Below, piece after piece: positions 11,740 through 32,052 of a DNA stretch of 38,938 bases. The position numbers and the translations under genes were made by a program. Numbering within the stretch: position 1 is the stretch's first letter; each line of letters begins with the position of its first letter. Source of the stretch: Actinomycetota bacterium (lineage in GTDB: Bacteria; Actinomycetota; AC-67); assembly GCA_020201525.1 (NCBI GenBank), contig JAIVGO010000016.1:1-38938 (forward strand). The letters run 5' to 3'. The notes under the pieces are model-generated. The model was not told the origin of the DNA. It made no database searches and saw only the letters and a list, made by a program, of their open reading frames with translations.

Positions 11740-13789
11740 CGGCGTAAAGACTTACTACGAGGTCTTTGGCCGCGGAGAGCGAACGATCCTTTTCCTCCCG
11801 ACGTGGGCGCTCGTCCACTCGCGTTATTGGAAGCTGCAGGTACCGTATTTCTCGCGCTATGCGAGGGTGATCACGTTCGACCCGCGCGGTCACCAGCCGT
11901 CCGACAGCCCGGCCGGTCCCGAGGCATACGCGCCGGCGGAGTACGCTGCCGACGCGCTCGCTGTCATCGACAAAGTCGGTGTCGAGCGAGCGACCGTGGT
12001 CGGTCTCTCGAATGGTGCGAAGACTGCGCTCGTGCTCGCGGCCGATCATGCGGACCGGATCGACGCGGTCGTTTTCAACTGCCCTTCGCTGGCGATAGGC
12101 GAAGCGATTCCGGGACGGGACTACGACTTCCTCGCGGAGATCGACACCGACGAGGGATGGGCGAAGTTCAATAAGCAGTATTGGCTACGCGACTTCGAGC
12201 GCTTCTTGGAGTTCTTCATGACGCTGAACTTCAACCAGCCGCACTCCTCCAAACCCTTCGAGGACGCGATGGAGTGGGCGCGCGAAACCACACCTGAAGT
12301 GCTCGCCGACACCTTCCTCGGTGGATTGATCGGGATGGACGAACAATCGGTTCGAGATCTTTGCGCGCGCGTTCGGTGTCCCGTTCTCGTCATCCAGGGA
12401 CAGGACGATCAGATCGTCGGCCCGGGTCGCGGGATCGCATTGGCCGGGGCCACCGGTGGCGAGCTTGCGCTGCTGCAGGGAGCCGGTCACAGCCCGCACA
12501 CGCGCGACCCGGTCAAGTTCAATCTGCTCGTTCGAGATTTCCTCGGGCTCCGACCACTCGCGACGACCTACACACGGTGGAACCGCCGCCGCCGGCGCGC
12601 GCTGTTCGTCTCGTCGCCGATCGGCCTCGGACACGCCTTGCGCGACATTGCCATCGCCGACGAGCTTCGGAAAGTGCGGCCGGATCTCGATATCGAGTGG
12701 CTCGCTCAGTCTCCGGTCACTCGTGCGCTCACCGATCGCGGGGAGCAGATCCATCCGGCCTCGGTGCAACTCGCGAGCGAAGTCGCGCACATCGACGCGG
12801 AGTCGCACGAGCACGACCTCCACGTCTTCCAGGCGTGGCGCCGGATGGACGAGATCATGCTCGCCAACTTCATGCTCTTCAACGATTTGATGGAGCAAGA
12901 AGCATTCGACCTCGTCATCGGCGACGAAGCGTGGGACCTGGACCACTTCTGGCACGAGAATCCGGAGTTGAAGCGCGCGCCGTTCGTGTGGATGACCGAT
13001 TTCGTCGGGTGGATCCCGATGCCTTCCGGTGGCCATCATGAGGCGTGGCTCGCCGCCGACTACAACGCGGAGATGATCGAGCACATCGAGCGCTTCCCGC
13101 GTTTGCGTGATCGCTCGATCTTCGTCGGCAATCCCGACGACATCGTTCCCGATTCATTCGGGCTCGATCTTCCCTTGATCAGAGGGTGGACCGAGGAGCA
13201 CTTCGAATTCAGCGGATACATCACCGGTTTCGACCCGACGGAGACGGAGGATCGCGGGGCGCTTCGGGAACGACTCGGCTACGCCCCCGGCGAGAAGGTC
13301 TGCATCGTCACCGTTGGTGGATCGGGAGCTGGAGCATCGCTTCTTCGTCGCGTTGTCGCCTCCTATCCCGAAGCGAAGCGTCGCGTGCCGGAGCTGCGGA
13401 TGGTGGTCGTCGCGGGACCGCGGATCGATCCCCAGTCGCTGCCGCGCGTCGAAGGGCTCGAGGTCCACGCGTACGTCCCCGGGTTGTACCGGCATCTTGC
13501 GGCGTGCGACGTCGCCGTTGTCCAAGGCGGACTGACCACGTGCATGGAGCTCACCGCGAACCGGCGCCCGTTCCTCTACTTCCCTTTGCAGAATCACTTC
13601 GAGCAGAATTTCCACGTACCGCACCGTCTGGGTCGCTACGGAGCCGGACGTCGAATGGAGTACGCGTCTTCTCCGCCGGAGATCATCGCCGAAGCGATCG
13701 CGCGCGAGCTTGCCCGCGAGGTCACGTACCGCCCCGTGGAAACCGGCGGTGCCGCGAGCGCCGCGGCATTGATCGCCGAATCTTTGTGA
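11696..13789 (+). CDS. Fused alpha/beta hydrolase - GT-B glycosyltransferase
   Basis: A 697-aa two-enzyme fusion. Residues 1-285 are an alpha/beta hydrolase: oxyanion region LFLPTWALVHSRYW, nucleophile Ser105 in VVGLSNGAKT, acid Asp237/238 in VIQGQDDQI, and His265 in GAGHSPHTR. From about residue 300 a GT-B fold of the MurG/UGT type begins (RALFVSSPIGLGHALRDIAI). Its donor site lies near the C-terminus (HAYVPGLYRHLAACDVAVVQGG, TTCMELTANRRPFLYFP, NHFEQNF). The two parts are joined by an Arg-rich linker (WNRRRRRALF). A hydrolase fused to a glycosyltransferase could deacylate and glycosylate one small molecule, or activate and detoxify it. ATG 11696 has GAAGGGAAAAGG upstream and lies inside the TetR gene. 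Substrate unknown; no signal peptide. Confidence 0.9.
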   Translation: MRARQPDESGTVERNGVKTYYEVFGRGERTILFLPTWALVHSRYWKLQVPYFSRYARVITFDPRGHQPSDSPAGPEAYAPAEYAADALAVIDKVGVERATVVGLSNGAKTALVLAADHADRIDAVVFNCPSLAIGEAIPGRDYDFLAEIDTDEGWAKFNKQYWLRDFERFLEFFMTLNFNQPHSSKPFEDAMEWARETTPEVLADTFLGGLIGMDEQSVRDLCARVRCPVLVIQGQDDQIVGPGRGIALAGATGGELALLQGAGHSPHTRDPVKFNLLVRDFLGLRPLATTYTRWNRRRRRALFVSSPIGLGHALRDIAIADELRKVRPDLDIEWLAQSPVTRALTDRGEQIHPASVQLASEVAHIDAESHEHDLHVFQAWRRMDEIMLANFMLFNDLMEQEAFDLVIGDEAWDLDHFWHENPELKRAPFVWMTDFVGWIPMPSGGHHEAWLAADYNAEMIEHIERFPRLRDRSIFVGNPDDIVPDSFGLDLPLIRGWTEEHFEFSGYITGFDPTETEDRGALRERLGYAPGEKVCIVTVGGSGAGASLLRRVVASYPEAKRRVPELRMVVVAGPRIDPQSLPRVEGLEVHAYVPGLYRHLAACDVAVVQGGLTTCMELTANRRPFLYFPLQNHFEQNFHVPHRLGRYGAGRRMEYASSPPEIIAEAIARELAREVTYRPVETGGAASAAALIAESL

Positions 13790-13902: not shown

Positions 13903-16900
13903 TCAGCAGAGGTAGCTCGTCACACTAAGCGATGAGTTCGAGATCCATGTCGTGAGTGACGTGTTGTCGCAGTTGATGTAATTGCTCTTGCAACACGCGA
14001 ATCCGAGCGACCAGCCGCCGAAACGCGAGTCCGCCCAGAAATTGGACCCCATCGTCTGCTGGATCCCGCTCCCCGCAGCGGTATCACGTGACTTGACGGT
14101 TCCGCTGGCGCGGTAGTGGCACGCGCCGGTGTCGGAGGATTGCGGCGAGGTTGCGCACCCGGGCGACGAGTGGTCGGTCGTGTTCTCGTAGATATAGCCG
14201 TTCAGCGAACCGCTCGTTCCGGTATCCAGCTCGAAAAGACGGACGCGGAGGTTTGTGATCTGGGTGTACTTCGTCGCAGTGCTCGGCGAACACGTCGCGT
14301 TGTTGGGACGCTGGCAGTCGAAGACGTTCATCGTCATCGGCTCACTTGCGGCAATCCGCTGTGAACCCCCGTTCGGCGCGTAGCGCCGGTTGCCCGCCGT
14401 CGCACCGGTGCACACGCCGTCGGAGGCGCTGCACACCTCGAAGTGCGCCGGCAACGGAGAGCTGATGTCGGTGTGCAAGTTCCACCGATCGCCGGAGTTG
14501 GTATCCATCGTCAGGCTGGTCGTCGGCTGTGACGCGTCCCAAATCATTTTCGTCCCGGTGGGGATATCGAACTGCTGGATGCTGAGTCCCGGCACGAGAC
14601 GGTCAATCGTTCCGCGCAGGTACGCCACTCGATTTGCCACCGCGTCGAGTTGCTCGGTATCGAATTTGAAGATTCGCCCGCCGATGCTGTCGATGGAGAA
14701 GTTCGGCGACTTCGCCGACGCCGAGCGCAACCCGGTGATGCGCGCGAAGGATACGTAGCGGTCTGAGAGATCTTCGAGCAGCAGCCCGTCGTATGCGGGG
14801 TCGATCTGATCGTCGGGCCCGCTGGTCAGCTGGAATTGCACGAGCCCGACGGTTCCGCCGTGCGCGTCGAGCGTGACGGTGCCGTCGGTTGCGAACGACG
14901 TGTCGATCGCGAGGGGCAGCGATTGCAGGAGAACGTGCGCCGCGGTTGCGCGGCCGGCGAGCCCGTCCGGGTTGCTTGCGTCGAACGCAACCGAGCTCAC
15001 CGGTGCCGAAGCCGAATACGAGAAGGAGGTCACGCTCGCCAGCGAGATGTTGAACATGGGCGCCAGCGTGTTGATGTCGGCAGTGAGCGTCGCGAGCCCG
15101 GCACCGCTCGCCGCCGGCTCGCTGATGTTCATCACGAACTCGCGTCCTCCGTTGGTCGCGAGCTTCAGCGTGGGCAACGCTCCCCGGCCGATCGTGGCCG
15201 ACTCGAGGCCGCTCAAGCGTGCGAAGATCACATAACGGTCGGGAAGATTTTCGACCAGGACGCCATCCTTGGCTGCATCGATCGAGTCGTCGGGACCACT
15301 CGTCAGTTGCACCTGGAACATTCCAAGCGTTCCGCCGTGCGCGTCTAGGGAGAGGCTTCCGTCGGATGCAAGCGTGGCGTCGAATGCCGACGGCAAGCTC
15401 TGGATGACGACGTGGGCGGCGGTTGCGCGCGACGACAACAGACCGCCCGTGTCGCTGAGGTCGAGCGTGATAGAGCCGACGGCTGCCGAAGCCGTGTACG
15501 TCACATTGGTCGCGCTCGCAAAAGAAAGGTCGATGCTCGCCGGCAGGCTGGTGATCGTGGCGAGGGCCGTCGCGCTTCCCGTTCCGCTGGGTGACGGCGC
15601 CTGAATGTTCGCGACGAACGTGCGCCCGCCGGTCGTCTGCAGCGACAAGGAGGGAAGGGTTCCCTGCCCGATCGTTGCTTTCTGGAGACCGGTCAGACGG
15701 GCGAAGACCACGAACCGATCGGCTAGGTCTTCGAGGAGCACGCCGTCTTTCGAGGGCTCGATCTGATCATCCGCTCCGCTCGTAAGCTGTGCTTGGAAGA
15801 GGCCGACCGTTCCGCCGTGCGCGTCGAGCGTTGCGCTCCCGTCCGTGCCAAGGGTCGCGTCGAATGCAAGCGGTAGGTTCTGGATGAGGACGTGCGCGTT
15901 CGTCGCCCGGCCGGAGAGTCCATCCGGATCAAATGCGTCCAGCGTGATCGAAGAAACGGGTGCCGACGCCGAATACGTGAAGCCGGTCGCGCTCGAGAAG
16001 GCCATGTCGAGATTCGCCGGAACATTATCGACGGTCGCAAGCGCGGTAGCCGTTCCGTTTCCGTTTGCCGAAGGAACGCGGATGTCGGCGACGAACGGAC
16101 GGCCTCCCGTCGTCGACAACGAGATCGACGGGAGCGTCCCGGCGCCGATCGTCGCCACCTTCACCCCGGTGATGCGCCCGAACGCCACGAAACGATCGGA
16201 GAGATCCTTCACGAGGATTCCGTCGTGCGCGGGATCGATGCGCTCGTCGGGCCCGCTCGTAAGCTGCGCCTCGAACAGCCCGAGCGTGCCGCCGTGCGCG
16301 TCGAACGAGAGCGATTGCTGAGTGCCCGAAAACGTCAGATCGACGGCGGCCGGAATGTCATTCAGCAGCACGTGCAGCGCAGTGGCCCGGCTTCCGGCGA
16401 AGCCTGCCGGATCCGTAGCGTCGAGCGTTGCGCTGCCAATACCGGCCGCGCCCGAGTACGACACCGTCTGCTGCGTCGTCGACGCGGCGAACCGGAACGT
16501 CGCGGGCAGGTCGTTGATGTGCGCGTCGGTAACCGCCGAGCCGTTGCCGATCAAGACGTGAAATGGCCCCGGCGCCATGGTCGCCGCAACGAGGAATGGG
16601 TCGCCGGAGTCGATCTCCGCCGGTGATGCGAGCCCGAGGAGCTGAAACGACAACGAGCTCGCGTCGCCGTTCCGGTCGGCGAAGAGATACGCCGGATCGC
16701 TGCGGAACGCGGGCGTGCGTCCGGTGCCGAGGCCCACCTTCGTCAACCCGATCGGCGAGCTCGTGTCGAGCGCGGCGTGCGTGGGCGAGTCCTGCGTCAG
16801 GCTCATGCTCGTCGGCACGTCTTGAAATCTCAAGTACGTGCTCTGGGAGACGGCGGCGCCGTTCGTCTCTCGCCCGTTCACCTCGATGGCGCTCACGCGC

Positions 16901-17742
16901 GCAGCGGCCGAGTAGGTCCACGATTGCGAACCCGTCTGCGGCGTGCCGGCGAGTGTTAGGGACATCGTCGCCGGCACCTTGTCGACGGTCGCGTCCAGAT
17001 GCCGGGCTCGAGCACCTTGCACGTCGTCCATGACGATTGTCGCCGTCGTTGCGACGTTGCTCGAGAGGTCAGCCCTTTGCTGGCTAAGTGTTGGCGCCGA
17101 CGCCGAAGAGCTGCTCAGGAAACCGAGGTGAGCGACCGTCGGAACGGGCGCATAGGAAACACGTGCAGTAATGGGATCAAGGTGCGCGCCGTTCTGATCC
17201 GGAGTGTATGCCTCCCCTGTGATGGAGATCGAGGAACCCGGCGCGGCCGTTTGCAGATCGAGCGAGAAGGTCGTGAGCCGGTCGGCGCCTCCGAGTATCG
17301 CGGTCGCGGAATAGCTCATCGGCGCCGTGCTCGACAGGGCGTCGTAACCGAACGCGAACCGGACTGGTGACGACGTCCTCTGGATAAACCGGTAAGCCGG
17401 CGGCTTGCGGACGTCGGGCAGATCGGCGACGACGGCAAGCGGTAACGGGCTCGGCGCGCCGGGAAGCGTCATGACGCTGAGTGTCGCGCGCCCGATGTCG
17501 GTCGAAAGTTGCACGAGGATGTCGGCGCCACCGACGCCGGTGAGCGCGGAATGGTCGGCGTCGACGAGCGCCGGAATACCGGAATACGTCTGCTGGTCCG
17601 TCGTGATGATCTGTCCTGCCGGGTTCTTGTACGACGCGTGCAGCGTGTAGGCAACCGGGTCGGTGGGGGCGGCGTGCGCGGCCGGGCTCGCCAGCAGCAG
17701 CGCCACGCCCGGGAGCGTCAACTTCCACGGGATCCGTCTCAT
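13903..17742 (-). CDS. Secreted repeat protein A (four approximately 160-aa units, ten-Cys C-terminal domain)
   Basis: A 1279-aa secreted protein of no family known to me. The signal peptide is residues 1-24 (AAHA|A). Residues 27-470 form an N-domain shared with protein B (DPVAYTLHASYKNP, ADILVQLSTDIGRATLSV, FAFGYDALSSTAP). Four copies of an approximately 160-aa unit follow, marked by LDAHGGT-GLFQ-QLTSGPDD and DRxVxFARxTGL, with the marker Asp at 481, 640, 800 and 959. The C-terminal domain (about 1040-1279) has ten cysteines (1104, 1111, 1143, 1151, 1196, 1208, 1250, 1251, 1258, 1279), all matched in B. There is no LPxTG motif, membrane anchor or catalytic motif. Composition (Ser, Thr, Ala, Asp, Gly) suggests beta-rich solenoid or Ig-like units. 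It is the last gene of the operon, and GGAG lies 8 bases before ATG 17742. Confidence 0.9.
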   Translation of the reverse strand: MRRIPWKLTLPGVALLLASPAAHAAPTDPVAYTLHASYKNPAGQIITTDQQTYSGIPALVDADHSALTGVGGADILVQLSTDIGRATLSVMTLPGAPSPLPLAVVADLPDVRKPPAYRFIQRTSSPVRFAFGYDALSSTAPMSYSATAILGGADRLTTFSLDLQTAAPGSSISITGEAYTPDQNGAHLDPITARVSYAPVPTVAHLGFLSSSSASAPTLSQQRADLSSNVATTATIVMDDVQGARARHLDATVDKVPATMSLTLAGTPQTGSQSWTYSAAARVSAIEVNGRETNGAAVSQSTYLRFQDVPTSMSLTQDSPTHAALDTSSPIGLTKVGLGTGRTPAFRSDPAYLFADRNGDASSLSFQLLGLASPAEIDSGDPFLVAATMAPGPFHVLIGNGSAVTDAHINDLPATFRFAASTTQQTVSYSGAAGIGSATLDATDPAGFAGSRATALHVLLNDIPAAVDLTFSGTQQSLSFDAHGGTLGLFEAQLTSGPDERIDPAHDGILVKDLSDRFVAFGRITGVKVATIGAGTLPSISLSTTGGRPFVADIRVPSANGNGTATALATVDNVPANLDMAFSSATGFTYSASAPVSSITLDAFDPDGLSGRATNAHVLIQNLPLAFDATLGTDGSATLDAHGGTVGLFQAQLTSGADDQIEPSKDGVLLEDLADRFVVFARLTGLQKATIGQGTLPSLSLQTTGGRTFVANIQAPSPSGTGSATALATITSLPASIDLSFASATNVTYTASAAVGSITLDLSDTGGLLSSRATAAHVVIQSLPSAFDATLASDGSLSLDAHGGTLGMFQVQLTSGPDDSIDAAKDGVLVENLPDRYVIFARLSGLESATIGRGALPTLKLATNGGREFVMNISEPAASGAGLATLTADINTLAPMFNISLASVTSFSYSASAPVSSVAFDASNPDGLAGRATAAHVLLQSLPLAIDTSFATDGTVTLDAHGGTVGLVQFQLTSGPDDQIDPAYDGLLLEDLSDRYVSFARITGLRSASAKSPNFSIDSIGGRIFKFDTEQLDAVANRVAYLRGTIDRLVPGLSIQQFDIPTGTKMIWDASQPTTSLTMDTNSGDRWNLHTDISSPLPAHFEVCSASDGVCTGATAGNRRYAPNGGSQRIAASEPMTMNVFDCQRPNNATCSPSTATKYTQITNLRVRLFELDTGTSGSLNGYIYENTTDHSSPGCATSPQSSDTGACHYRASGTVKSRDTAAGSGIQQTMGSNFWADSRFGGWSLGFACCKSNYINCDNTSLTTWISNSSLSVTSYLC

Positions 17743-17826
17743 TGCGGCTTCTCCGGTGCACAGAGGACGCTCCGCCCCTTCGGTGACTGTTGCCGGCCGA
17801 AGGGAGGAGCCATCATCCGGCCCTTC

Positions 17827-18825
17827 TTACGGTGATCCTGCATGGCTGAGCGTGTACGCCGAACCGTCCGCCAGCACGACGTTCGCCGCGAAATTCCGCG
17901 TAGCGGTGTCGAAAACACCGTTCAGCGTCAGGTCGGCGTCCTGGTAGCTGATGGAGATCACGGTGTCGCCGCACCCGGTGATGTCGCACTGCGACGAAGG
18001 CGGGCTCGGCGCAGCCGGCACGTCCGGCGGCACGTTGACTACCGGCACCGGGTTCGGGGTCAAGCATCCCTGCGGCCCGTTCTCGAGGACGTACGGCAAG
18101 AAGTTCGCGCCGGTCGGGTCGGTGCAGACACCACTCACCGCCGGCGGGTTCGGAGGGTTCGGTGTGCACGTCGCCGGGTCCACGGCGGGATCGCACGGCC
18201 CCGACGGAGCGCTCGGGGCGTTGGGCACGCCTTGGAAGCTCATGTTCGCGTCGCTCTTGATGCCGCTGTCGAACGCGCCGATAAGGACCTCGAAGTTCTT
18301 CAAGAACGGGTTGATCTTGATTGTCCCCGCGCCGTTATCGCCTACGAAGTCGATCCAGTTTTTGAGACTGACCTGGATGTCGGAAAGCGTGGAGTTAACG
18401 CTCCCGTAGCAGAAGCCACCGGCGAGGGTGGCGCGGCGATCGGTGGCGGTGCTCTTAACGTGAAAGAATCCGTCCAGGGGTTCGTTGCGCGAGTCCCACG
18501 TCGTGCTCCAGCCGCCGTCGCCCGTGTGGGTTTGGGAGAAGACCACCACGGAGTCACGGTCCCGCGTAACCGTGATGGTTGAGCTCGCCTTCGGCGCACC
18601 GAGATATTGCTGCAAGGGAGCGCAGGTGGCATCGGATTGGCCGCCCCGGTTCTCGTTGATGAAAACCACCCCGCTAACGGTCGCGCCGTTCGACGGCGTG
18701 GTGATCGCGGCGTGCGCGGGCATGACCGCGATGGTCGCCGCCACGATCGCCACGAGCACGACGATGCCGGCGCTCACACGCAGCACGAACTTTCTTCTCC
18801 GATCGAGCGATGATCTCCCGCTCAT
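17827..18825 (-). CDS. Secreted 332-aa protein with Cys/Pro linker and a C-terminal module shared with the Ig-repeat protein
   Basis: The basic N-terminus and hydrophobic segment (SAGIVVLVAIVAATIAVMPAHA|A, residues about 18-39) form a signal peptide or anchor. Residues 40-190 look like an Ig-like fold with cysteines (ATVSGVVFINENRGG, FSQTHTGDGGWSTTWDSRNE, GFFHVKSTATDRR). A Pro/Cys-rich stretch follows (SGPCDPAVDPATCTPNPPNP). The last 45 residues (SISYQDADLTLNGVFD..., ending AYTLSHAGSP) resemble the end of the Ig-repeat protein at 25.2-25.4 kb. No enzyme motif is seen. ATG 18825 follows GGGGGAG. It lies 30 bp after the 293-aa gene and 84 bp before protein A, so it belongs to the same transcription unit. 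Function unknown. Confidence 0.85.
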   Translation of the reverse strand: MSGRSSLDRRRKFVLRVSAGIVVLVAIVAATIAVMPAHAAITTPSNGATVSGVVFINENRGGQSDATCAPLQQYLGAPKASSTITVTRDRDSVVVFSQTHTGDGGWSTTWDSRNEPLDGFFHVKSTATDRRATLAGGFCYGSVNSTLSDIQVSLKNWIDFVGDNGAGTIKINPFLKNFEVLIGAFDSGIKSDANMSFQGVPNAPSAPSGPCDPAVDPATCTPNPPNPPAVSGVCTDPTGANFLPYVLENGPQGCLTPNPVPVVNVPPDVPAAPSPPSSQCDITGCGDTVISISYQDADLTLNGVFDTATRNFAANVVLADGSAYTLSHAGSP

Positions 18826-18855
18826 GTGCTGCTCCCCCTTGTGCTGTTTGTGGAA

Positions 18856-19737
18856 TTACGGAACGTCCAGGAAACCGACGTTGGCCCCCAAGACTGGATG
18901 GTTGTCGAAGATCGCTGCGTCTGCGCCGCCGTAGAGGTATCCGCCGCCAAAACCGAAGCAGTAGCCGAGGAAGCAGAACGAAGTCGTGATGTTGGCGTAT
19001 TGATAGACGTGGCCGAGGAAGTCGAGCGACGTGTCCGACGGCAACCCGATCCACTGGAACGGCAGAGGGGGTGTCGGTGGCACTGGCGAAGGTAGTGACG
19101 GCAGGAGCGAATACGGGACGGGAAGGTACGGGCCGCTCGAGCCGGTGTCGACGTTCGATCCGAGAAAGTAGAAGCCGGCGGCGTGAAATCCGGTCCAGCC
19201 GCCGCCACTGATGTGATAGAGAGGTCCGCCGACGTCGTAGGCGACCAACGGGAAGCCACCCGATGTCGCGCATGTGACGGGGTCGCCGCCGAGCGCCGTG
19301 CACAGCGCCGCATCCGCCGGCTCGACCGGCGGGGTCTCCGGGACCACCGTCGACTTCTTAACGGTGTAACCGACCGTCGTATCAGTTCCGGCGTAGAGCC
19401 AAACGTGGAAGATGTCTCCGACCTCGTACTCAGGTGTGCCCTGCGGGCCCTTCTCTTTCGACCCCGACGCCGGAATCCGCGAAAGTGCGGATTCGATTGC
19501 GTCGCGGAACCGCATCGATCTGGTGGACACTGTGCCGTCGGAGCCGATCGTTTGGAGCTTTGCCGTGGCGTTGAAGAAGCGGTAGGGGCTTATCCCGTAC
19601 GACTTTGCGAGCGAGATCGTTCGCTGACGCAACACGTCAGCCATCGTCTTCGGACGCGGCGCTGCGTGCGCGCCCATGGTCGAGAATGCCAGCGCCGCGA
19701 GCGTAGCCGCCACCAGAAGCCGCTTGGTCCGGGTCAT
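18856..19737 (-). CDS. Secreted Gly-rich hypothetical protein (293 aa)
   Basis: The signal peptide is residues 1-25 (LLVAATLAALAFSTMGAHA|A). A charged helical segment follows (MADVLRQRTISLAKSYGISP and SMRFRDAIESALSRIP), then a region with EYEVGDIFHVWLYAGTDTTVGYTVKK. After a Pro-rich bridge (LPSLPSPVPPTPPLPFQWIG) the C-terminal part is rich in Gly, Tyr and Phe with a Cys pair (SFCFLGYCFGFGGGYLYGG). No family is recognised. The sticky aromatic/Gly end could support self-assembly or burial against a partner; that is inference. The ribosome site is GGGAGAGGGG before ATG 19737. It sits 43 bp after repeat protein B and 30 bp before the 332-aa gene, inside the secreted-protein operon. Confidence 0.82.
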   Translation of the reverse strand: MTRTKRLLVAATLAALAFSTMGAHAAPRPKTMADVLRQRTISLAKSYGISPYRFFNATAKLQTIGSDGTVSTRSMRFRDAIESALSRIPASGSKEKGPQGTPEYEVGDIFHVWLYAGTDTTVGYTVKKSTVVPETPPVEPADAALCTALGGDPVTCATSGGFPLVAYDVGGPLYHISGGGWTGFHAAGFYFLGSNVDTGSSGPYLPVPYSLLPSLPSPVPPTPPLPFQWIGLPSDTSLDFLGHVYQYANITTSFCFLGYCFGFGGGYLYGGADAAIFDNHPVLGANVGFLDVP

Positions 19738-19780
19738 GCCGTTCCCCTCTCCCTAGTTGTCTGCAGCGCTCGCAAACCGA

Positions 19781-22700
19781 TCAGCAAATGAACCCGCTCA
19801 CTCCGATCTTGATGTTGAGGAGCCAGACGTTGAGCGAGGCGCTGTCGCAGTTGATGTAGTTCTTCTTGCAGCACGAGAAGATGTACACGGTCCAACCGCC
19901 TTGGCGCTGGTCGGCCCAGAAGCTTCCGTTGCCGAACGTCTGCTCGATCCCGGTGCCGGCGCTCGTGTCGCGTTGCTTGATCGAGCCGCCGAGGATCCGG
20001 TTGTGGCACGCGCCGGAGTCGGCGGCTTGCGGACTCGCCGCGCAGCCGTTCGTACCATGCTCCGAGGTGTTCTCCCAGATCATGCCGGCGGAGTCGCTTC
20101 CCGCGTTCTCCTGCTCGAAGAACTTGACCCGCCAGTTGGAGATCTGGAAGTACTTCGTACCACTCGACGTGTCGATGCAGGTTGCGTTCAACGGTCGCTG
20201 GCAGTCGAAGACGTTGATCGTGACGTTCTCCGACGCATGGACCGAGGTGCTGGACGGGCCCGAGGTTTGCGAGCGAGTGTCGCTTGCCGGGCGGTTGGAG
20301 CACGCGAACGTGTTACCCGACGAGCAGATGTCGAGGTGCACCGGAAGCGGTGCAATGCCGGTGTGAATGTTCCAGCGGTCGCCGGAGTTGGAGTCCATCG
20401 ACAGGCTGTTCGTGCGCACGTCGGCGTTGTAGGTCGTCACCGACTTCGTTCCGCCGGGCACCGCGACGTCGGCCAGCGACACGTTGATGTGCCGCACCAA
20501 GCGATCGAGCGTGATCCGCAAGTACTCAGTCTTGCCGGATGTGTTGAGCTGTTCGGTCTCGACCTTCAGCACTCTGCCGGCGTCGCTGTCGATCGCGAGG
20601 TTCGGCGCCTTCGCAGACGCGGTGTACAGGCCGGTGGTGCGGAAGAAAGCCTCGTACCGGTCCGCGAGGTCCAGGAGCATGATCCCGTCCTGCGCGTCGG
20701 AGATGTACGTGGTGTGATCGTCGACACAGGTCGAGGGTCCCCCGGAACAGCTCGCGATGAGGAATTCGATCTGCCCGATCTTCTCGCCGTGCGCGTCCAG
20801 TGTGACGGTGCCGTCGGTCGCGAACGAAACGTCGAAGCCGTGCGGCAGCGAGGTGAAGCTCGCGTTCAGGTGCTTCGTCTTCGTGACCCACGCTCCGCCG
20901 CCGGCGACGCCGTCGGGGTCGAACGAGTCCAGGGTGATCGAGCCCACCGGGTCCGACGCTGTGTAGTTGAAGTTCGTCGAGCTCGTGAACTTGATCGACA
21001 GGCTGGCGGGGAGCACGTTGATGTCCGCAGTGGTCGAGGCGCGCCCCGTCGGCTTGTCCTGCTCGAGATCCACGACGAACTCCCGCCCGCCGGTCGTGTT
21101 CAGGGTCAGCGCCGGTGGCGGCCCTTGGTCCACGACAACTTTCCTGAGGCCGGTGACACGCGTGAAGACGACGTACTTATCGGTCAAGTCCTCGACGAGG
21201 ATGCCGTCCTTCCCGGGGTCGATCTGGTCGTCGGGACCGCTCGTGAGCTGAACTTGGAAAAGCCCGAGGGTGGAGCCGCCGGCGTCTATCGTGGCTGCCG
21301 TGCCTCCCCGACCGAACGACAGGCTCAGCGAGGTCGGAATCGACTCGAGCCGCAAGTGCGCCGTCGTCGCCCGTCCGGAAATCCCGTCCGGGTCGAAGGC
21401 GTCGAGGGTCGCGAGGTCCATCACGTCGGACCCGGTGTAGGTGACGGTCCCGGCGGCGGCGTTGAAGTGGATCTCGATGCTGGGGACGAGGTGGTCGAGC
21501 GTGGCGTCCAGCGTGGCCTCGTGGTTGTTTGAGTTGAGCGTGTCGAAGCTGACCTTGAACACACGCCCCGCGGCGGTGTCCAGGCGAAGGCCGAGGTCGT
21601 CGCCGGAGGTGGCAACGACTTTCTTCAAACCCGTGATTCGCGAAAAGACCACGTATTTGTCGGCGAGGTCCTCGACGAGCACGCCGTCGTACGCTTCGTC
21701 GATCCGGTCGTCCGGCCCGCTGGTGAGCTGTAGCTCGATGAGGCCCAGCGTCTGGCCCTTGGCGTCCAATGAGACCGAAGAGCTGCTGCCGCCGAAGGCG
21801 AGATCCAGCGTCGTTGGGATGTCCTGCATGAGCAGGTGCATGTCGGTCGCCCGGCCGGAGACGCCGGCGGGGTTGTGCTGGTCGAGCGTGAGCTTCCCCA
21901 TCACGGCCGACCCCTCGTAGCTGATCGTTCCCGCCGAGGGCGAGCCGGAGATCTTCACGGTGTGCGGGAGGTTGAGGAACCACCCCTCCGTCGTGGCGGC
22001 GCCGTCCACCTGGAGCAAGTGGAACGGCCCCGACTTCAACGTTGCGCCGATCACGAACGGATCGCCGGAGCCGACTTCGGCGGACTCGAGCTGCTTGACC
22101 TGGAAGGCAAGGGATTCCACGGTTCCGTCGTTGAAGGCGTAGAGATACTGGTCGTCGCCGAGGAACTTCGGGGCGCCCCCTTTCGCCAGCCCGGCGCGAA
22201 CGACGCCGATTGCGGAGTCGCTCTGGAAGGTCGAGTGCGTCGGAGAATCCTGCACGAGCGTCGCCGTGAGCGACATGTCTTGCAGCTCGAGGATGGACTG
22301 GTTCAGGACCGTGCTCGTCCGGGTCTCGGTTTCCTTGATCAGGATCTCGTCCACACGATCACTCGCGCGGTAATTCCAAGTTTGCTGACCGGTTGCCGCG
22401 ACGCCCGTCAGGACGAGCGACATCGTGTTCGGAATCTTGTCCACCGTGGCGTCGACGCGGTTTTCATGCGTTCCTTGGATATCTTCGATGACGACGACGC
22501 CGGTCGTCGGGATGTCGCTGGCGAGGTCGATGCTCGCCTGGCCGGCGCCGATGCCCGGTCCGATGTCCGAGCCGCTCAGGATGCCGAAGTGTCCGACGGC
22601 GGGGACGGGCGTGAAGTCGATTCGCGCTTGAATGGGATCGATGTGCTCACCGTTGTCGCCGAGCGTGTACACGGATCCAGTTACGCCGAGCGTGTCGCCG

Positions 22701-23194
22701 GGCACGACCGTGTGCAGGTCCATCGAGAAGCTCGTGACCCGATCGGCGCCGGCAATCGCGAGCGTCGCGTCGTACACCTGCGGCGCGGTGGAATTGAGAG
22801 CGTCGTATCCGAACGCGACGCGCAACTTGTCGTCGGGCGGCCCGAGCAGCGGAAGCGGGATGTCCTTGCGTGGATCTTGCAGGATCGCCTCGACCGACAA
22901 AGGAAAGTCCTCGAGCGAGTCGGGCAGCTTGGAGACGCGCAGGGTGGCCCGGCCGGCGTCGATCGTCATTTGGACGAGGATGTCCGGCACGGAATCGCCG
23001 GTCATGTCGACGAGCTCCGGCTTGACCTCCAGTGAATCGACCGTCACTTCGTGAAGCTGGGCCTGCGGATCCTTGTAAACCGCGTGGATCTTGTACGCGA
23101 TCGGGTCGGTGACATCGGATGCGCTCGCCGACGACAGTGTGAGGATCGCTATGCCCGGCAGGAGCAAGAGCCCCAATCTCATTCGCTTCGTCAC
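19781..23194 (-). CDS. Secreted repeat protein B (three approximately 160-aa units, ten-Cys C-terminal domain)
   Basis: An 1137-aa paralogue of protein A. The signal peptide is residues 1-25 (LLLLPGIAILTLSSASA|S). The N-domain includes LVDMTGDSVPDILVQMTID (61-79), which resembles the calcium-binding loop of VCBS/FG-GAP repeats; the loop is degenerate in A. Three units follow, with marker Asp at 477, 637 and 800 (QLTSGPDDRID, DGVLVEDLADKYVVFSRITGL). The third carries an insertion with Cys816 and Cys823 that A lacks. The C-terminal domain has ten cysteines (957, 965, 998, 1006, 1051, 1063, 1108, 1109, 1116, 1137) spaced almost exactly as in A, the last being the final residue. The start is a GTG at 23194 behind AGGGAGG. 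It lies 31 bp after the NHL gene. No enzyme motif; function unknown. Confidence 0.9.
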   Translation of the reverse strand: MTKRMRLGLLLLPGIAILTLSSASASDVTDPIAYKIHAVYKDPQAQLHEVTVDSLEVKPELVDMTGDSVPDILVQMTIDAGRATLRVSKLPDSLEDFPLSVEAILQDPRKDIPLPLLGPPDDKLRVAFGYDALNSTAPQVYDATLAIAGADRVTSFSMDLHTVVPGDTLGVTGSVYTLGDNGEHIDPIQARIDFTPVPAVGHFGILSGSDIGPGIGAGQASIDLASDIPTTGVVVIEDIQGTHENRVDATVDKIPNTMSLVLTGVAATGQQTWNYRASDRVDEILIKETETRTSTVLNQSILELQDMSLTATLVQDSPTHSTFQSDSAIGVVRAGLAKGGAPKFLGDDQYLYAFNDGTVESLAFQVKQLESAEVGSGDPFVIGATLKSGPFHLLQVDGAATTEGWFLNLPHTVKISGSPSAGTISYEGSAVMGKLTLDQHNPAGVSGRATDMHLLMQDIPTTLDLAFGGSSSSVSLDAKGQTLGLIELQLTSGPDDRIDEAYDGVLVEDLADKYVVFSRITGLKKVVATSGDDLGLRLDTAAGRVFKVSFDTLNSNNHEATLDATLDHLVPSIEIHFNAAAGTVTYTGSDVMDLATLDAFDPDGISGRATTAHLRLESIPTSLSLSFGRGGTAATIDAGGSTLGLFQVQLTSGPDDQIDPGKDGILVEDLTDKYVVFTRVTGLRKVVVDQGPPPALTLNTTGGREFVVDLEQDKPTGRASTTADINVLPASLSIKFTSSTNFNYTASDPVGSITLDSFDPDGVAGGGAWVTKTKHLNASFTSLPHGFDVSFATDGTVTLDAHGEKIGQIEFLIASCSGGPSTCVDDHTTYISDAQDGIMLLDLADRYEAFFRTTGLYTASAKAPNLAIDSDAGRVLKVETEQLNTSGKTEYLRITLDRLVRHINVSLADVAVPGGTKSVTTYNADVRTNSLSMDSNSGDRWNIHTGIAPLPVHLDICSSGNTFACSNRPASDTRSQTSGPSSTSVHASENVTINVFDCQRPLNATCIDTSSGTKYFQISNWRVKFFEQENAGSDSAGMIWENTSEHGTNGCAASPQAADSGACHNRILGGSIKQRDTSAGTGIEQTFGNGSFWADQRQGGWTVYIFSCCKKNYINCDSASLNVWLLNIKIGVSGFIC

Positions 23195-23225
23195 TTTCGG
23201 CCTCCCTGTGTCGGTGCTCGCAAGG

Positions 23226-25091
23226 TCAAATGGTTGCTCGGTACGCTTCTGGTTGTGTCGGCAGGCAGCTGGCCTCCGGGTCGTTCAAGTCGCACGGCGG
23301 CGGCGGCAGGCAGCTTCCCGGATCACTTGGGTCGCACGGCGGTTCGGTAGGCGGCATGCAGCTCGCCGGGTCGCTCACGTCGCACGGCGGGGGCGGCGGC
23401 TGTCCCAGACAGCTCGCCGGGTCGCTCACGTCGCACGGCGGCGACGGTGCTCCACAACTCTGCGGGTCGCTCACGTCGCACGGCGGCTGCGGTGGCGCGG
23501 GGAGGCACGCAAGGGGATCCGACGAGCACTGGATCCCCGGCTGCGCCTGCGCCGCCGGGGCGAATGACTGCGTGCGGTTTCCAGTCTTCTCGGCGACCCA
23601 GATCGTCCCCGGCTTGCTGCTCCCGGGCTTCATGATTGCGATCCCTGCGGGGGCCTGCATGCTTCCCGCGGCCGTTCCGGAGCTTCCCCACGCCTCGATG
23701 AACGCGCCGTTTCGTGCGAAACGCTGGATGCGGTTGTTCCCCGTGTCCGATACGAAGACGCCGAGCGCGTTGGCGGCGACTCCGCTGGGGGCGCTCGTGC
23801 ATCCGTTCGCCGTTCCGGCTCCGCCCCAAGCGCCGGCGAGCTCTCCGGTCAACGTGAACTTCTGGATCCGGTTATTGCCGGTGTCGGCTACGTAGAGATA
23901 CCCGCCGTGGTACGCGACGCCCGTCGGCCCGGACAATTGACCGGGATCGTGGCCGGAGGTGCCGATGACGGCGACGGACGCGCCGGCGGGCGTCACGATT
24001 TGAATCCTGTCGTTCTCGGAATCCGCGACGACGAGCTGGTAGTCGGCAGACCCTGTGCCGGTGGGGATGACTGCCATCCCACGCGGGGACGAGAACTGTC
24101 CGGGCGCGCTGCCCCCAGTGCCGAACTTGCCTCCGAAGAAACCGCTGACGCCGAAATACTGGATCCTGTTGTTTCCGCTGTCCGCGACGTAGATCGTGAA
24201 GCCGTTCGGCGAAACAGCGACCCCGGACGGCGAGGAGAACTGGCCATCACCGGAACCGAGCGATCCCCACTTCGACAATGGAAAGCCGCCGGCGGGATCG
24301 AGGCGCAGGACCCGGTTGTTACCGGTGTCCGCGACGACGACGTCGTTCTGATTGTCGATTGCCACCGCGGTCGGCCCGCCCAGCGAGGTGTTGCTCGGCG
24401 TGAGCGGCACACCGGGGCCGTATCCTGCTGCGGCTGCCGGCGGCAGAGCGTCCTGATACACCGGGCGCCGCGCCCCCTCGGTTTTCGGAGCCAGCGGCGT
24501 ACACGGCATCTGCGGCGCGGCCGGAATGGTGCTCGGTATCGGCGGAACCCCATCGGCGACCGGTTGAACCGTCACACTTATGACGAGGTCGTGCGAATCC
24601 ATCCATGCCAGGTCTTCTGCGAGCGGAGCGAAGTGCTCGTCGAAGGTCTGCGGGTACGTCCCAAGCATCGGTGCGGTGAGCGTGACGAGGAACACGCCGT
24701 ACGTGCTTGGTGCGACGGCCGGTGTTTCCATGCTCACGCGCCGGCCGTCGATCCACGCGGGGTCGGATGCCGCGGCGAAAGCGCTGACGCGGTCGCGAGG
24801 ATTCACCGTCGCGAGCCGAACTGGGTGGCCGTCGCTCGAGGTGCCATCGGAAAACCACGTCGCGGCGCCGACGTTCTTGAGTACGACGGCAACCGTCGTC
24901 TTTTCGCCGGGGTGCAGCGTGGCCGGGATGGGATTGTTCTTCGTTGTGAGCGACCAGTCGTAATCGGCGGCGTGCGCGCTCATCGGGGCAGCCGCCGAAG
25001 CGAGGCAGAGGGCAATCAACAGATGCCGCACGGGCCGCCGGAAGCAGCGCGCGTGACGCGCGCTGCTCGCGGCTGCCTTGTGCCCTCTCAC
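23226..25091 (-). CDS. Secreted NHL beta-propeller protein with Cys/Pro repeat tail
   Basis: About 621 aa. After a signal peptide (HLLIALCLASAAAPMSAHA|A) comes an Ig-like domain of the NBR1-like kind seen on bacterial surface proteins (VLKNVGAATWFSDG, LATVNPRDRVSAF, FAPLAEDLAWMDS). Six NHL-type blades follow (VVVADTGNNRVLRL, IYVADSGNNRIQYF, LVVADSENDRIQIV, LYVADTGNNRIQKF, VFVSDTGNNRIQRF, IWVAEKTGNRTQSF). The tail is a tandem of PPCDVSDPxSC-type units of 14-17 residues. NHL propellers usually bind proteins, carbohydrates or RNA. I choose the GTG at 25091, which has AGGAG five bases upstream overlapping the stop of the preceding gene, over a GTG at 25109 with no such site. The 8-bp gap implies translational coupling. 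Confidence 0.9.
   Translation of the reverse strand: MRGHKAAASSARHARCFRRPVRHLLIALCLASAAAPMSAHAADYDWSLTTKNNPIPATLHPGEKTTVAVVLKNVGAATWFSDGTSSDGHPVRLATVNPRDRVSAFAAASDPAWIDGRRVSMETPAVAPSTYGVFLVTLTAPMLGTYPQTFDEHFAPLAEDLAWMDSHDLVISVTVQPVADGVPPIPSTIPAAPQMPCTPLAPKTEGARRPVYQDALPPAAAAGYGPGVPLTPSNTSLGGPTAVAIDNQNDVVVADTGNNRVLRLDPAGGFPLSKWGSLGSGDGQFSSPSGVAVSPNGFTIYVADSGNNRIQYFGVSGFFGGKFGTGGSAPGQFSSPRGMAVIPTGTGSADYQLVVADSENDRIQIVTPAGASVAVIGTSGHDPGQLSGPTGVAYHGGYLYVADTGNNRIQKFTLTGELAGAWGGAGTANGCTSAPSGVAANALGVFVSDTGNNRIQRFARNGAFIEAWGSSGTAAGSMQAPAGIAIMKPGSSKPGTIWVAEKTGNRTQSFAPAAQAQPGIQCSSDPLACLPAPPQPPCDVSDPQSCGAPSPPCDVSDPASCLGQPPPPPCDVSDPASCMPPTEPPCDPSDPGSCLPPPPCDLNDPEASCLPTQPEAYRATI
23289..23486 (-). repeat. 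Coding tandem repeat for the Cys/Pro tail (PPCD units)
   Basis: The 12-mer GTCGCACGGCGG recurs at 23289, 23331, 23379, 23430 and 23475. The spacings (42, 48, 51 and 45 bp) are all multiples of three, so the repeat is constrained as protein. Each unit encodes roughly PPCDVSDPxSC plus a Pro-rich spacer. DNA identity is highest among the three central units, which suggests recent unit duplication. Confidence 0.85.
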
Positions 25092-25099
25092 TGCCGCTC

Positions 25100-27941
25100 C
25101 TATGGACACACCGGATCACCGATCGGGTTCGGCGCGCAGCTCGGAACGGCGGGCTCCGGGGTCGGAGGCAGGCTCGGCGAAGGCGTTTCGGATGGCAGCA
25201 CGTTCGGCAAGCAGCCCTGCGGAACGTCGCACGGGGGCTCCGGGAGCGCAGGCGTGTGCCGAAGGGCGTAGGTCCCCGACGCTGTTGCGACGGTTGCCGC
25301 GAAGGATCCGGAGTCGAGATCGAACACGCCGACGACCGTCAGCGAGCCGTCGTTATATGCGATGAGGACGCTCGACCCCAGGACGAGCATGTTCGCGTCG
25401 TCGATGGTGCCCGACGAGTCGGAGCCGTCGCCGCTCTTGAACGCGAACTGCTTCGTGCTCGTGTCGATGAAGATCGAGCCTGCTTGGTCGTCGTCGACGA
25501 AGGCGTACTCCCAACCGATCGTGAAGCTCGTCGAGTCACCGCTCGCGCCGTAGAAGCCGTCGTCTGCGAATGACGCAGCCGCTGTGTAGTCCCCTGAGTT
25601 CTGGTCCAGCGGCGCCGTCACTGAAGCCTTTCCGTCGGGACTGGTGGTGGGATCCGGATCGCCCGCGAAGGAGCCAAGCGTGAAGTGGACCGGCTTGCCC
25701 GCGAGCGGCGCGCCCGAAAGCGTGTCGGTCAATGTCGCCGACATCGTGGCGGTGCCCCCGTGATCGCCACTCGTGTCGCCGTCGTATGTGAGCGTGGTCG
25801 GGCGCTTGCGAGTCGTGAAGCCGTCGGAGCCGGCGGACGGCTCGTAGTAGTCGTTACCGGTGAATAGAGCGGCTGCGGTATAGGCGCCGGGCGCGTCGTC
25901 CAGTGTCACCGTCGTAGATACCGTCCCGTCCGAGTCGCTCGCCTCAGGTGGTATCACCGCGCTCCCCAGGGAAAGGCCCACATCAACGCCTTCGATGGCG
26001 GCGCCGCTGTCCGTGTCTGTGATCCTCGCGGAGAGGGCAGCATCGTTCTTCCAGAAGCCTTCGGTGTCGCCGGTGTAGCTGAGGGTGGTCGCGCGCTTGA
26101 GGATCGTGAATCCCGCCGCGTCCGAGCTCGAGTCGTACAGGGCATCTCCGGCCGATGCGGATACCGTGTAGTCGGCGGGAACGTCGCCGAGCAGCAGCGG
26201 AGCGGCGGCGATGCCGAGTGCGTCGGTCGTGGTCGTCGCGCTTCCGCTCCCGAGCGTGAAGGTAACGCTCGCGCCCGCGGCCGGCAGACCCTTGCGCACA
26301 TCGGTCACCGACGCTCGGAGGTTCGCGAGATCGTTCCACTTCCCCGACGCGTCACCCAGGTACACGGTCGACGTGGGGCGCTTGTGAATGGTGAACGGGG
26401 CGCTGCCCGATCTGTCGGCAAACCCGTCCTCGCCCGCATAGCTCGCGGAAACGGTGTAGTTGCCGGGGGTGTCGGACAGGTCGATGGTCGTGGCTGCGAG
26501 ACCGTTCTCGTCGGTCGTTGCCGTTGCCGACTGCGATCCCAGCGTGAAAGTCACCGTCCTGGCTTGGAGCGGCACGCCGTGAGACGTGTCGGTCAGGGTC
26601 GCAGAAACCGCTGCGGTTTCGAGCCCGAAGCCTTCGGTGTCGCCGGAGTATTCGATGGAGGTCTGCGCATCGAGCTTGACGGTGAAGTCTTGGGACGCCG
26701 AGTTGCCGGCGTTGTCGGTCGCCGAAACCGAGACGGTGTGCTCGCCGGGATCCGTGACGTCGGTTGCCGAACCGCACGAGATCGGGTTGCCGTCGAGGGT
26801 GCAGGACTTTGTAGCGATGCCGCTGGTGGCGTCGGCGGCGTCGGGGGAGACACTCAGCGTCCCACGGCACCACCCATTGTCGCCGGGCAGCGAGCATGAC
26901 TCGTTCGCCCCCAAGCTCGGTGCGGTCGTGTCGACCTTGATCGCGCCCGAGACCGGCGCAGAGGCGTTGTTGGTCCAGTCGGTCGCGCTCGCCGCCACCG
27001 CAAAGGTTCCGTCGCCCGTCGTGACCGGAATGGGGGCACCGGACGTGTACGTCCCCGAGGCGCCGCCCGTCACGTTGTAAGTGCGCGACTTGACCCCGAT
27101 GCCTTGGGCGTTGCCCGAGCCGTCGTTGTTGTCGGTGATGGTCACGGTGTTGGTGGCCGAAAGACACCAGCCGTTGGTCCCGGCGACGTTGCACGCCGGC
27201 ACGACCGAGCTCACGACCGGCGCGACGACGTCCTTGTAGCGGATGCCGATGTTCTGCGGTGGGGTGCCGGTGGTCTTGAACAGTTGCAACCCGGATGTGG
27301 TTGTCGGCCTCGAAGAGCGCGTATTCGAAGTTGTAGCAGGTCGCGCTCAAGCTGCCGGCGTGGTTGACGGAGCTGAACTGGATGCGCATCACGCGGTTCG
27401 GCGAGGTCCCCGTCGTCTGGGTGTAGACGCCGGTGGCGCTGTTGCTGGCGCAGGTCAGGGAGTTGTGCCGGGAGGGGTCCATGTCGTTCCACATCGCGGC
27501 CACCATGGCGTTGGGCACGCCGGTGTTGGGCAAGTCCGCGCCGTAGCAGGTCGTGCACGGCCCGGCCAAGAAGGTGATGAACCCGTTTGAGCTCATGTAC
27601 ACCGTCGGATTCGAGGAGTCCCCGGCGATGCCGTTGGTCGAGATGCCCGAGGACCAGTGAAACGGCCAGTTCGGCTGCCCGGCGGCGGGGCCGAGGGGAA
27701 TGGTCACGTCGTCGCTGACGCTGAGCTTGCACGGTGCGCCGCAGGTACCACGGATGTCGACGTTCCCGCTCGTGCCGATGCCGTCGTTGACGTTGATCCC
27801 TGCGGCATCGGTGGAGTTGAAGGCGTTCGCCGGCTGGACGGCAAGCAGCGCCAGGCCCAACGCCAGGCACAGGAGCTTTGCAACGCCGCGCTTTCTTGTC
27901 GCAGCGTGAACAGACGAACGAGATGCCCGAAAGATCTGCAT
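25100..27941 (-). pseudogene. Secreted Ig-repeat surface protein, interrupted by a single-base frameshift
   Basis: About 946 aa if repaired. The signal peptide ends VQPANA|F. The N-domain (about 35-215) resembles nidogen-like extracellular modules (NGFITFLAGPCTTC, VAAMWNDMDP, ATCYNFEYALFEADNHIR). The frame breaks at the CCC run 27290-27292; removing one base joins NHIR to LQLFKTTGTPPQNIGIRYKD. Two Cys-containing segments follow (CNVAGTNGWC and CSLPGDNGWC), then four Ig-like units of about 95 aa, of which the last three begin KRPTSTVYLGD, KRATTLSYTGD and KRPTTLTYDGD. The end module (VLIAYNDGSLTVVGVFD) resembles that of the 332-aa protein, and a Pro/Cys tail closes it. The length is one base over a codon multiple. 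ATG 27941 follows GGAGG. It is the first gene of the operon. Both halves keep normal codon use, so the lesion is either recent or a sequence error. Confidence 0.8.
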
Positions 27942-28062: not shown

Positions 28063-29490
28063 CTATCGTACGTTTTGCTCCGGCATTCTCCCTACGGACG
28101 TTCTGTCGGGACTTGCAGGCCGCAGACTCGACAGGATGTCCATTGGGGCCTCTACGGGTACCCGCGCCTCGCGGCCGGAGCCGAGTTGCCCACCCGGAAG
28201 GACGGCTCGCGTCCGCAATCCCAGCTCAAGCAGGAGCACGTCGTTCCTGCTTCGAAGGCTGCGCGCCGTGAGCTCTTCAATGCGCTCGAGGCGCGCGGTC
28301 AGAGTGTGCCGGTGCACGAACAGGCGTTTCGCGGTGGCGATGAGGTTGCCGCGCTCCTCGAAGAGGGCGGTCAACGTCGCGAGAAGCTGTGTTCCCTGAT
28401 CGGCATCGTTTCTAGCGAGCGGCTCGATCATGGCGCGATAGAGGTCAGCCGACAAAGAAGTGTCGTGCATGAGCAACAGCGCCGGCAACAAATCGGTGAA
28501 CGACGCGATCCGTGGAGAGGATGTCATCGCGCGCGCCGCGTCGAGGGCCCGCATCGCTTGACGGTAGCTCACAGCGATGCCCGCTATCCCGCTTTCGATG
28601 CGACCCAGTGCGCCTTGCGCGTCTACGCCACCGGGAAGCGCGGCGTGGGCGAGTCCCGATTCGATCGCTGCGACCAGGCTCGCCTCCGTGGTGGGACCTG
28701 TGACGACGAAAAGGGCGATGACAACGAGCCCACGAGCGTCGATGATGGAGCGGGTGTGCTCGGCGTTGATGGTTCTGAGCGCGTCGATCACTGCCGCCGC
28801 ATGTGAGACACGAGACGAATCGCCGCGGGGAGATGTCGTGATGACTGCAACGGCATGCATGGAGCCGAGGCGGTACCCGATTCGCTCCGCACGTTCACGC
28901 AGCGGTTCACCGCCGGCGATCGGTCCCGACAGAAGCTCGTTGAAGACGTCACGGCGCACGCGTTCCTCCGTCGCGGCCGTTTCGCGCTCGGCTTCGAGGA
29001 ATGCCTGGGTGACCGCGCCGGAGATCTGCGCGGTGATGCCGAGGATCGCGACGCTGACCGACGCGACGATCTCGGTTGTCGTGGCAGAATCTTCATTCGA
29101 AGCGTTTAGGGCGTCGATGATGTATTGCCATGCGACCCGAGTGCCGATTTGGTACGCGCGCAGCAGCGCGTGCAACGGAAAGCCTTGCGCCGCTCGAAGG
29201 CGGCCGAGCTCGCGCAGAACCGCGAGCGCTTGATCGTCGAGCGGAGCGCCGTCGGCGACGGCATGCAGGATCACTTGAACGTTCATGCGGGTGATGTTCC
29301 GGACCTCCGCGAGAGCCGAAGGGTTGTCGAGGGAGGCGTAGGCCTCGATCTCCTTGAGGTAACCGGCGAGCATCGCGTCGGTCAGCTCTTCGATGCGAGC
29401 CTCGACCACGGAAGCGATCCGGGCACGCGCGGTCGCGATGCCGTCGCCGGTTGCAAGACCGGCAGTCTCCAACTCTGCGTTGGTCGGCAC
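28063..29490 (-). CDS. PucR/CdaR-type transcriptional regulator
   Basis: A 475-aa regulator. The N-terminal half is helical and of the RsbRD/PucR-N kind (EALTDAMLAGYL-like region, LGRLRAAQGFPLHALLRAYQIG). A central degenerate GGDEF-like part (about 200-330) follows. The C-terminal HTH_30 domain is clear (TLTALFEERGNLIATAKRLFVHRHTLTARLERIEELT). About 45 residues after the usual end (from AVLPGGQLG) are not conserved and may be a recent extension. PucR proteins typically sense small molecules and activate adjacent catabolic or surface genes. GTG 29490 lies behind GAGGAGA. It stands 121 bp upstream of the six-gene secreted operon on the same strand, and 108 bp after the secreted hydrolase gene, so control of either is plausible but inferred. 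Confidence 0.9.
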   Translation of the reverse strand: MPTNAELETAGLATGDGIATARARIASVVEARIEELTDAMLAGYLKEIEAYASLDNPSALAEVRNITRMNVQVILHAVADGAPLDDQALAVLRELGRLRAAQGFPLHALLRAYQIGTRVAWQYIIDALNASNEDSATTTEIVASVSVAILGITAQISGAVTQAFLEAERETAATEERVRRDVFNELLSGPIAGGEPLRERAERIGYRLGSMHAVAVITTSPRGDSSRVSHAAAVIDALRTINAEHTRSIIDARGLVVIALFVVTGPTTEASLVAAIESGLAHAALPGGVDAQGALGRIESGIAGIAVSYRQAMRALDAARAMTSSPRIASFTDLLPALLLMHDTSLSADLYRAMIEPLARNDADQGTQLLATLTALFEERGNLIATAKRLFVHRHTLTARLERIEELTARSLRSRNDVLLLELGLRTRAVLPGGQLGSGREARVPVEAPMDILSSLRPASPDRTSVGRMPEQNVR

Positions 29491-31968: not shown

Positions 31969-32052
31969 TTTCACCTTTGCGCGCTTGCGTCGAGTGCCCG
32001 TGAAGTCATGAACGTCTTCGCTGGGCGCGCGCCAGAGTCCTTCCTTCATCAT

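Follow-up and report, generated by a model that had tools for sequence, protein, structure and literature searches.

We report a putative operon of exported proteins that is conserved in a narrow lineage of Actinomycetota and has no described counterpart in the libraries searched. Two of its products, A and B, belong to an undescribed family of all-beta repeat proteins, which is present in few Actinomycetota and mostly solitary outside the family of the host genome. What is new here is this family of repeats, together with its partners; a proven system it is not yet. The operon lies in a stretch of 38,938 nucleotides that was analyzed as a whole (hereafter, the window) and represents an entire contig of a 3.7-Mb genome (95% complete, 4.5% contamination). 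It consists of six neighboring minus-strand coding regions, namely, five intact open reading frames and one broken gene (gene 1), with a gene for a PucR-type regulator located directly upstream. The features, from high to low coordinates, are as follows.

28063..29490, minus strand: PucR-type regulator, with GGDEF-like and HTH_30 domains (Pfam HTH_30, 1.8e-16; GGDEF_2, 5.4e-13)
27941 (start) to 25100 (end), minus strand: gene 1 overall, split by a frameshift
27285..27941, minus strand: N-terminal piece of gene 1, ahead of the frameshift, with a signal peptide and a Cys-containing N-domain
27277..27293, minus strand: approximate place of the frameshift splitting gene 1, marked by a frame change and a shift of the GC-rich codon position
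25100..27289, minus strand: C-terminal piece of gene 1, in the other frame, with Ig-like repeats, a conserved C-domain and a Pro/Cys tail (Pfam Big_3_5, 4.7e-10)
23226..25091, minus strand: NHL protein (start GTG at 25091), with a signal peptide, an N-terminal Ig/NBR1-FW-like domain, an NHL propeller (NHL, 1.2e-32) and a Pro/Cys tail
24552..24968, minus strand: N-terminal domain within the NHL protein, with slight resemblance to NBR1-FW (weak matches to PF16158 and PDB 5n5p)
19781..23194, minus strand: repeat protein B, 1137 aa, with an N-terminal beta domain, repeats of about 160 aa and a Cys-rich C-domain ending in Cys
20900..22072, minus strand: modelled repeat region of B, all-beta (pLDDT 80, pTM 0.75)
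18856..19737, minus strand: P3, secreted, 293 aa, no known domain, with relatives only in genomes G002 and G121
17827..18825, minus strand: P2, secreted, 332 aa, with an N-domain, a Pro/Cys insert and a C-domain shared with gene 1
13903..17742, minus strand: repeat protein A, 1279 aa, a paralogue of B (42-45% identity) with 5 profile repeats
14503..16422, minus strand: four clear 160-aa repeats of A, starting at residues 441, 602, 761 and 921

The order along the minus strand is gene 1, NHL, B, P3, P2 and A. A sequence-only reading of this DNA had described six adjacent minus-strand genes with gaps of 8, 31, 43, 30 and 84 bp, and the coordinates of the open reading frames bore out both the adjacency and the gaps. 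However, the six are not all whole genes: gene 1 is not one intact open reading frame, and the GC-rich codon position changes phase near 27,285, where its frame switches, reflecting either a genuine lesion or a mistake in the assembly. By inspection, the N-terminus of all six proteins is charged and hydrophobic and leads into an A-x-A-like site, in keeping with the signal peptides noted earlier. As had also been noted, they lack an anchor; neither an LPxTG-like sorting signal followed by a C-terminal membrane stretch, as in sortase-assembled pili and adhesins, nor any second membrane-like stretch was found in the six. The PucR regulator, overlooked in the sequence-only reading, is the first gene of the conserved block (see below). 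Promoter and terminator scans were uninformative in this genome, which is high in GC.

The proposed sharing of modules among the six proteins was confirmed for the paralogous A and B, for the N-domain of P2, for a C-terminal domain common to gene 1 and P2, which has no Pfam name, and for a Pro/Cys linker. The P2 N-domain recurs in the P2 protein of G002, a genome of a second genus in the same family, as well as at the N-terminus of the G002 gene-1 protein. The linker (C-D-x-x-D-P-x-x-C) is present in two window proteins, NHL and P2, and in two of G002, the gene-1 product and NHL.

The window genome encodes eight WhiB proteins, and no Omp85 protein was found in it, which fits a host belonging to the Actinomycetota, with a single membrane and no outer membrane. 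In such a single-membraned host, exported proteins would reach the wall, the cell surface or the medium, and not a periplasm of the kind that an outer membrane encloses. The relative JACQXY01 is named as Acidobacteria in GenBank, which suggested a Gram-negative setting; for the window genome, this is contradicted by the same eight WhiB genes and missing Omp85. The contigs JACQXY010000071.1 and JACQXY010000019.1 (L027 and L028, from G002) were deposited as 'Acidobacteria bacterium isolate NC_groundwater_1527', yet they are grouped in the family of the window genome. The Acidobacteria label conflicts with this placement and may be wrong.

Whether the genes stay together outside the window was answered differently within and beyond the family. 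In G002, a single strand carries, in order, genes for PucR, an Ig-like protein, an NHL protein, an A/B protein, a subtilase that also has Ig-like domains, P3 and P2, the shared genes being 37-56% identical to those of the window. When the window genes were searched against the G002 contig (tblastn), matches were restricted to the PucR-to-A block, and none of the flanking window genes had one. The PucR regulators, found at the same position, are 54-56% identical, and the C-terminal piece of gene 1 is 41% identical to the G002 gene-1 protein over about 600 aa. The G002 subtilase (G002:C53, L024:2058-4052; Peptidase_S8, 1e-47) is encoded between A/B and P3, and its C-terminal Ig-like domain matches gene 1. 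The earlier statement that none of the proteins is an enzyme thus stands for the six window proteins, for which Pfam and NCBIfam yielded only NHL and Ig-like matches, but fails for the conserved locus. Furthermore, another contig of the window's own genome, C204, carries a paralogous trio of genes, separated by gaps of about 15 bases, for a cadherin/Ig-like protein, an NHL protein and a 2041-aa A/B protein, without P2 and P3; assembly contamination has to be kept in mind for C204, although its GC content (63%) is close to that of the window (64%). Orthologues of the NHL protein were found both in G002 and on C204. Identity between paired genes of the window row and the related loci is about 31-56%, varying with gene and method; linkage has thus survived much divergence. 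It is this recurrence in diverged loci, rather than the short gaps alone, that excludes chance linkage. By contrast, A/B genes outside the family are mostly solitary, and the most complete relative within it (G001, 97%) has neither A/B nor P3 nor the NHL N-domain. The A/B and NHL similarity comparisons were not congruent, and the trio has thus not descended as a single unit throughout. Two side observations concern the same genomes: a divergent exported protein of an unnamed family starts beside the paralogous trio (G000:C204, L026:16300-17907), and a further G002 contig (G002:C73, L025:7443-11902) carries two short tandem A/B-family proteins with no NHL or Ig neighbors.

An iterated profile of the A/B repeat recovered 103 copies of about 160 aa each in 19 proteins, with 1-13 copies per protein. 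A profile of A/B matched 4 of the 397 genomes of the phylum, and 8 of 297 in the class of G121, where the A/B genes are solitary with unrelated neighbors. In seven A/B-bearing genomes of that class, a search (without a positive control) did not find the NHL N-domain. Taken together with the solitary A/B genes, this result indicates that A/B proteins can work alone. No convincing chain was matched by A/B sequences in the PDB, and a single-sequence scan of the genome contigs with B gave no matches. Weak Pfam matches to A/B (DUF5975, SprB, RCC reductase) were below the cut-off and inconsistent among family members, and were rejected. A phage or plasmid origin was likewise rejected: no match was found among plasmids or viral contigs, and PHROGs matched only the NHL repeats.

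A full-length model of B was all-beta, of low confidence (mean pLDDT 54.8). The better model, that of the repeat region, had no PDB match below E 0.01 by Foldseek. OspA variants recurred weakly in the Foldseek list of the better model, and MORN-repeat proteins in that of the viral library. Such extended beta-hairpin meanders, low in the lists as they are, are consistent with an extended antiparallel meander in A/B, but no E value was better than 0.05 and TM stayed under 0.25, and we claim no relation. The A/B strands are clearly amphipathic (2.97 versus 1.98 +/- 0.26 in shuffles, with 0/2000 as high), a pattern equally expected of sandwich, paired-sheet and groove folds.

Convincing relatives of P3 were confined to the window genome, G002 and G121, all 3 of which also carry A/B, compared with the 4 of 397 and 8 of 297 genomes that carry A/B in general. 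In G121, a distant genome of another lineage, a single exported protein of 477 aa combines a P2-like with a P3-like half (L070:2517-3950; G121:C1, about 2759517-2760950), matching G002 P3 at 2e-22 and window P2 at 3e-13; a 2806-aa A/B protein is encoded about 28 kb away. Fusion of neighboring genes is classic evidence for contact or a shared role of their products. Because P2 and P3 are fused in one G121 gene, the fusion points to a putative P2-P3 complex.

The remaining two proteins have recognizable relatives. The NHL repeats of the window protein scored 110.7 bits against a curated cut-off of 20 (Pfam PF01436), and its PDB matches are NHL propellers (6d69, 1q7f and the PknD sensor 1rwi; E values down to 3.8e-55). 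Unlike these known propellers, the window protein is exported, has an FW/Ig-like domain ahead of the propeller and a Pro/Cys tail behind it, and is encoded in an operon with A/B. The Ig-like repeats of gene 1 exceed the Pfam cut-off for Big_3_5 (PF16640), as in other Ig-like surface proteins, from which gene 1 differs in having no anchor and in possessing the C-domain in common with P2. A NIDO domain was considered for gene 1 and dismissed, given an E value of 0.21 for the N-terminal piece and no match after reading through the frameshift. The claim that no described system has this set of parts was upheld in the libraries searched, which yielded no match to any described family of pili, S-layers, adhesins or lipid-transfer proteins. 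In particular, Pfam gave no match to SLH or known S-layer domains for the window row or the G002 locus. An anti-phage defence system was rejected as well, PADLOC giving only a weak NHL-type match (E 0.0014). We found no paper on secreted NHL and Ig-like proteins in Thermoleophilia.

What the operon builds can be read in several ways. Our tentative first choice is that of a regulator-linked operon whose exported proteins assemble, outside the membrane of a monoderm actinobacterium, into a surface layer or fibre; the adhesive matrix, fibre or scaffold put forward earlier is plausible. PucR would control the expression of the row, A and B would form extended beta rods of adjustable length, and the Ig-like gene-1 protein would provide another rod. 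The binding or adaptor piece would be the NHL propeller protein, which has the FW-like domain, and P2 and P3 would make a sub-complex. We infer assembly through disulfides or non-covalent contacts, and disulfides along with contacts of the shared linkers would hold the parts together. In favor of this reading are the G002 row with its unmatched flanks and its PucR at the same position, the C204 trio, the G121 fusion, the presence of A/B in every genome with a convincing P3, the monoderm host, the all-beta amphipathic repeats, the shared modules and the missing anchors. Against it stand the solitary A/B genes, the seven A/B-bearing genomes in which the NHL N-domain was not found, the subtilase of G002, the gaps in G001, the non-congruent A/B and NHL comparisons and the frameshift of gene 1 as sequenced. 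The main rival, which we regard as doubtful, is that the genes are co-induced in an operon, whereas the proteins act separately as secreted binders without a common structure. The stand-alone A/B relatives in the class of G121 speak for separate action, as do the NHL N-domain not found there (in the search without a positive control), the C204 trio devoid of P2 and P3, and the non-congruent A/B and NHL similarities. However, gene order has been kept across diverged loci, and domains and Pro/Cys linkers are shared between different proteins, both of which argue for a common structure; so does the natural gene fusion in G121, which supports a probable P2-P3 contact. A surface scaffold for a substrate or for partner enzymes, cellulosome-like or glycan-binding, with the NHL protein and its FW-like domain binding the ligand, appears unlikely. 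It is suggested by the subtilase in the G002 row and by matches of the NHL N-domain to a putative cellulosomal scaffoldin domain (PDB 5n5p, profile match, E 0.023) and to the Ig-like domain of NBR1 (N_BRCA1_IG, PF16158; E 0.0075 in 1 of 3 orthologues, none for the window copy). Both of these matches are weak, however, and neither a glycosidase in the conserved block nor, by Pfam, any cohesin, dockerin or carbohydrate-binding module in the window row or the G002 locus was found.

We also considered for A and B a role as secreted, one-sided beta sheets cradling lipid or another hydrophobic cargo, in the manner of the repeating-beta-groove lipid-transfer proteins. In the latter, units that each comprise a crossing loop and five antiparallel strands bent into a U follow one another head to tail (PMC9719229). 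Like these bridge-like proteins (VPS13, ATG2, BLTP1, TamB and AsmA), A and B are long all-beta repeat proteins of similar length, with repeats of about 160 aa and strands having one aliphatic and one polar face; unlike them, A and B are exported without an N-terminal anchor, and there is no sequence relation. Groove proteins of this class are hydrophobic on the concave side and polar on the convex one; in the amphipathic A/B strands, either face may be the concave one. The full-length model of B matched LPD-3/BLTP1 (9cap_A, E 4.9e-7, prob 0.97), but the match came from the weaker model and had a TM of 0.10 and an rmsd of 24.9, and it was lost with the better model, for which no lipid-transfer protein was present among the 50 listed Foldseek matches. 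Profile comparison (hhalign) of A/B with E. coli TamB, YhdP, AsmA, YdbH and LptD gave probabilities of 0.1-0.8% (TamB, 0.7%), which is noise level, near those of reversed and unrelated controls; nor did A/B have a Pfam match to the AsmA, TamB, YhdP, YdbH or chorein-N families. Moreover, the host has no outer membrane to bridge to. The lipid-cradling reading, attractive at first, is therefore retained only as an improbable rival. Its most elaborate form, in which A and B would be secreted beta-groove rods of adjustable length with one aliphatic face, serving a single-membrane bacterium as extracellular carriers or binders of lipids or other hydrophobic compounds, with the NHL protein as adaptor, the P2-P3 pair as a further part and PucR in control, is very improbable.

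To our knowledge, large exported repeat proteins of uncultured Actinomycetota have been little studied. The defined A/B family, its conserved partner set and the P2-P3 fusion offer concrete, testable interactions, together with a regulator, for a putative surface structure that is unnamed in the libraries searched.

Three other genes of the window deserve mention. Just upstream of the PucR gene and outside the conserved block, a secreted protein of the Peptidase_S9/esterase type is encoded on the minus strand (29599-32052). On the plus strand, a single open reading frame (11651-13789) joins an alpha/beta hydrolase (PF00561, 3.9e-22) to the C-domain of a GT28-type glycosyltransferase (PF04101, 5.5e-8), an unusual fusion, and another (1211-2248) encodes a protein in which a DUF559/MTES_1575 nuclease-like domain comes after one of the AbiEi_4 type.
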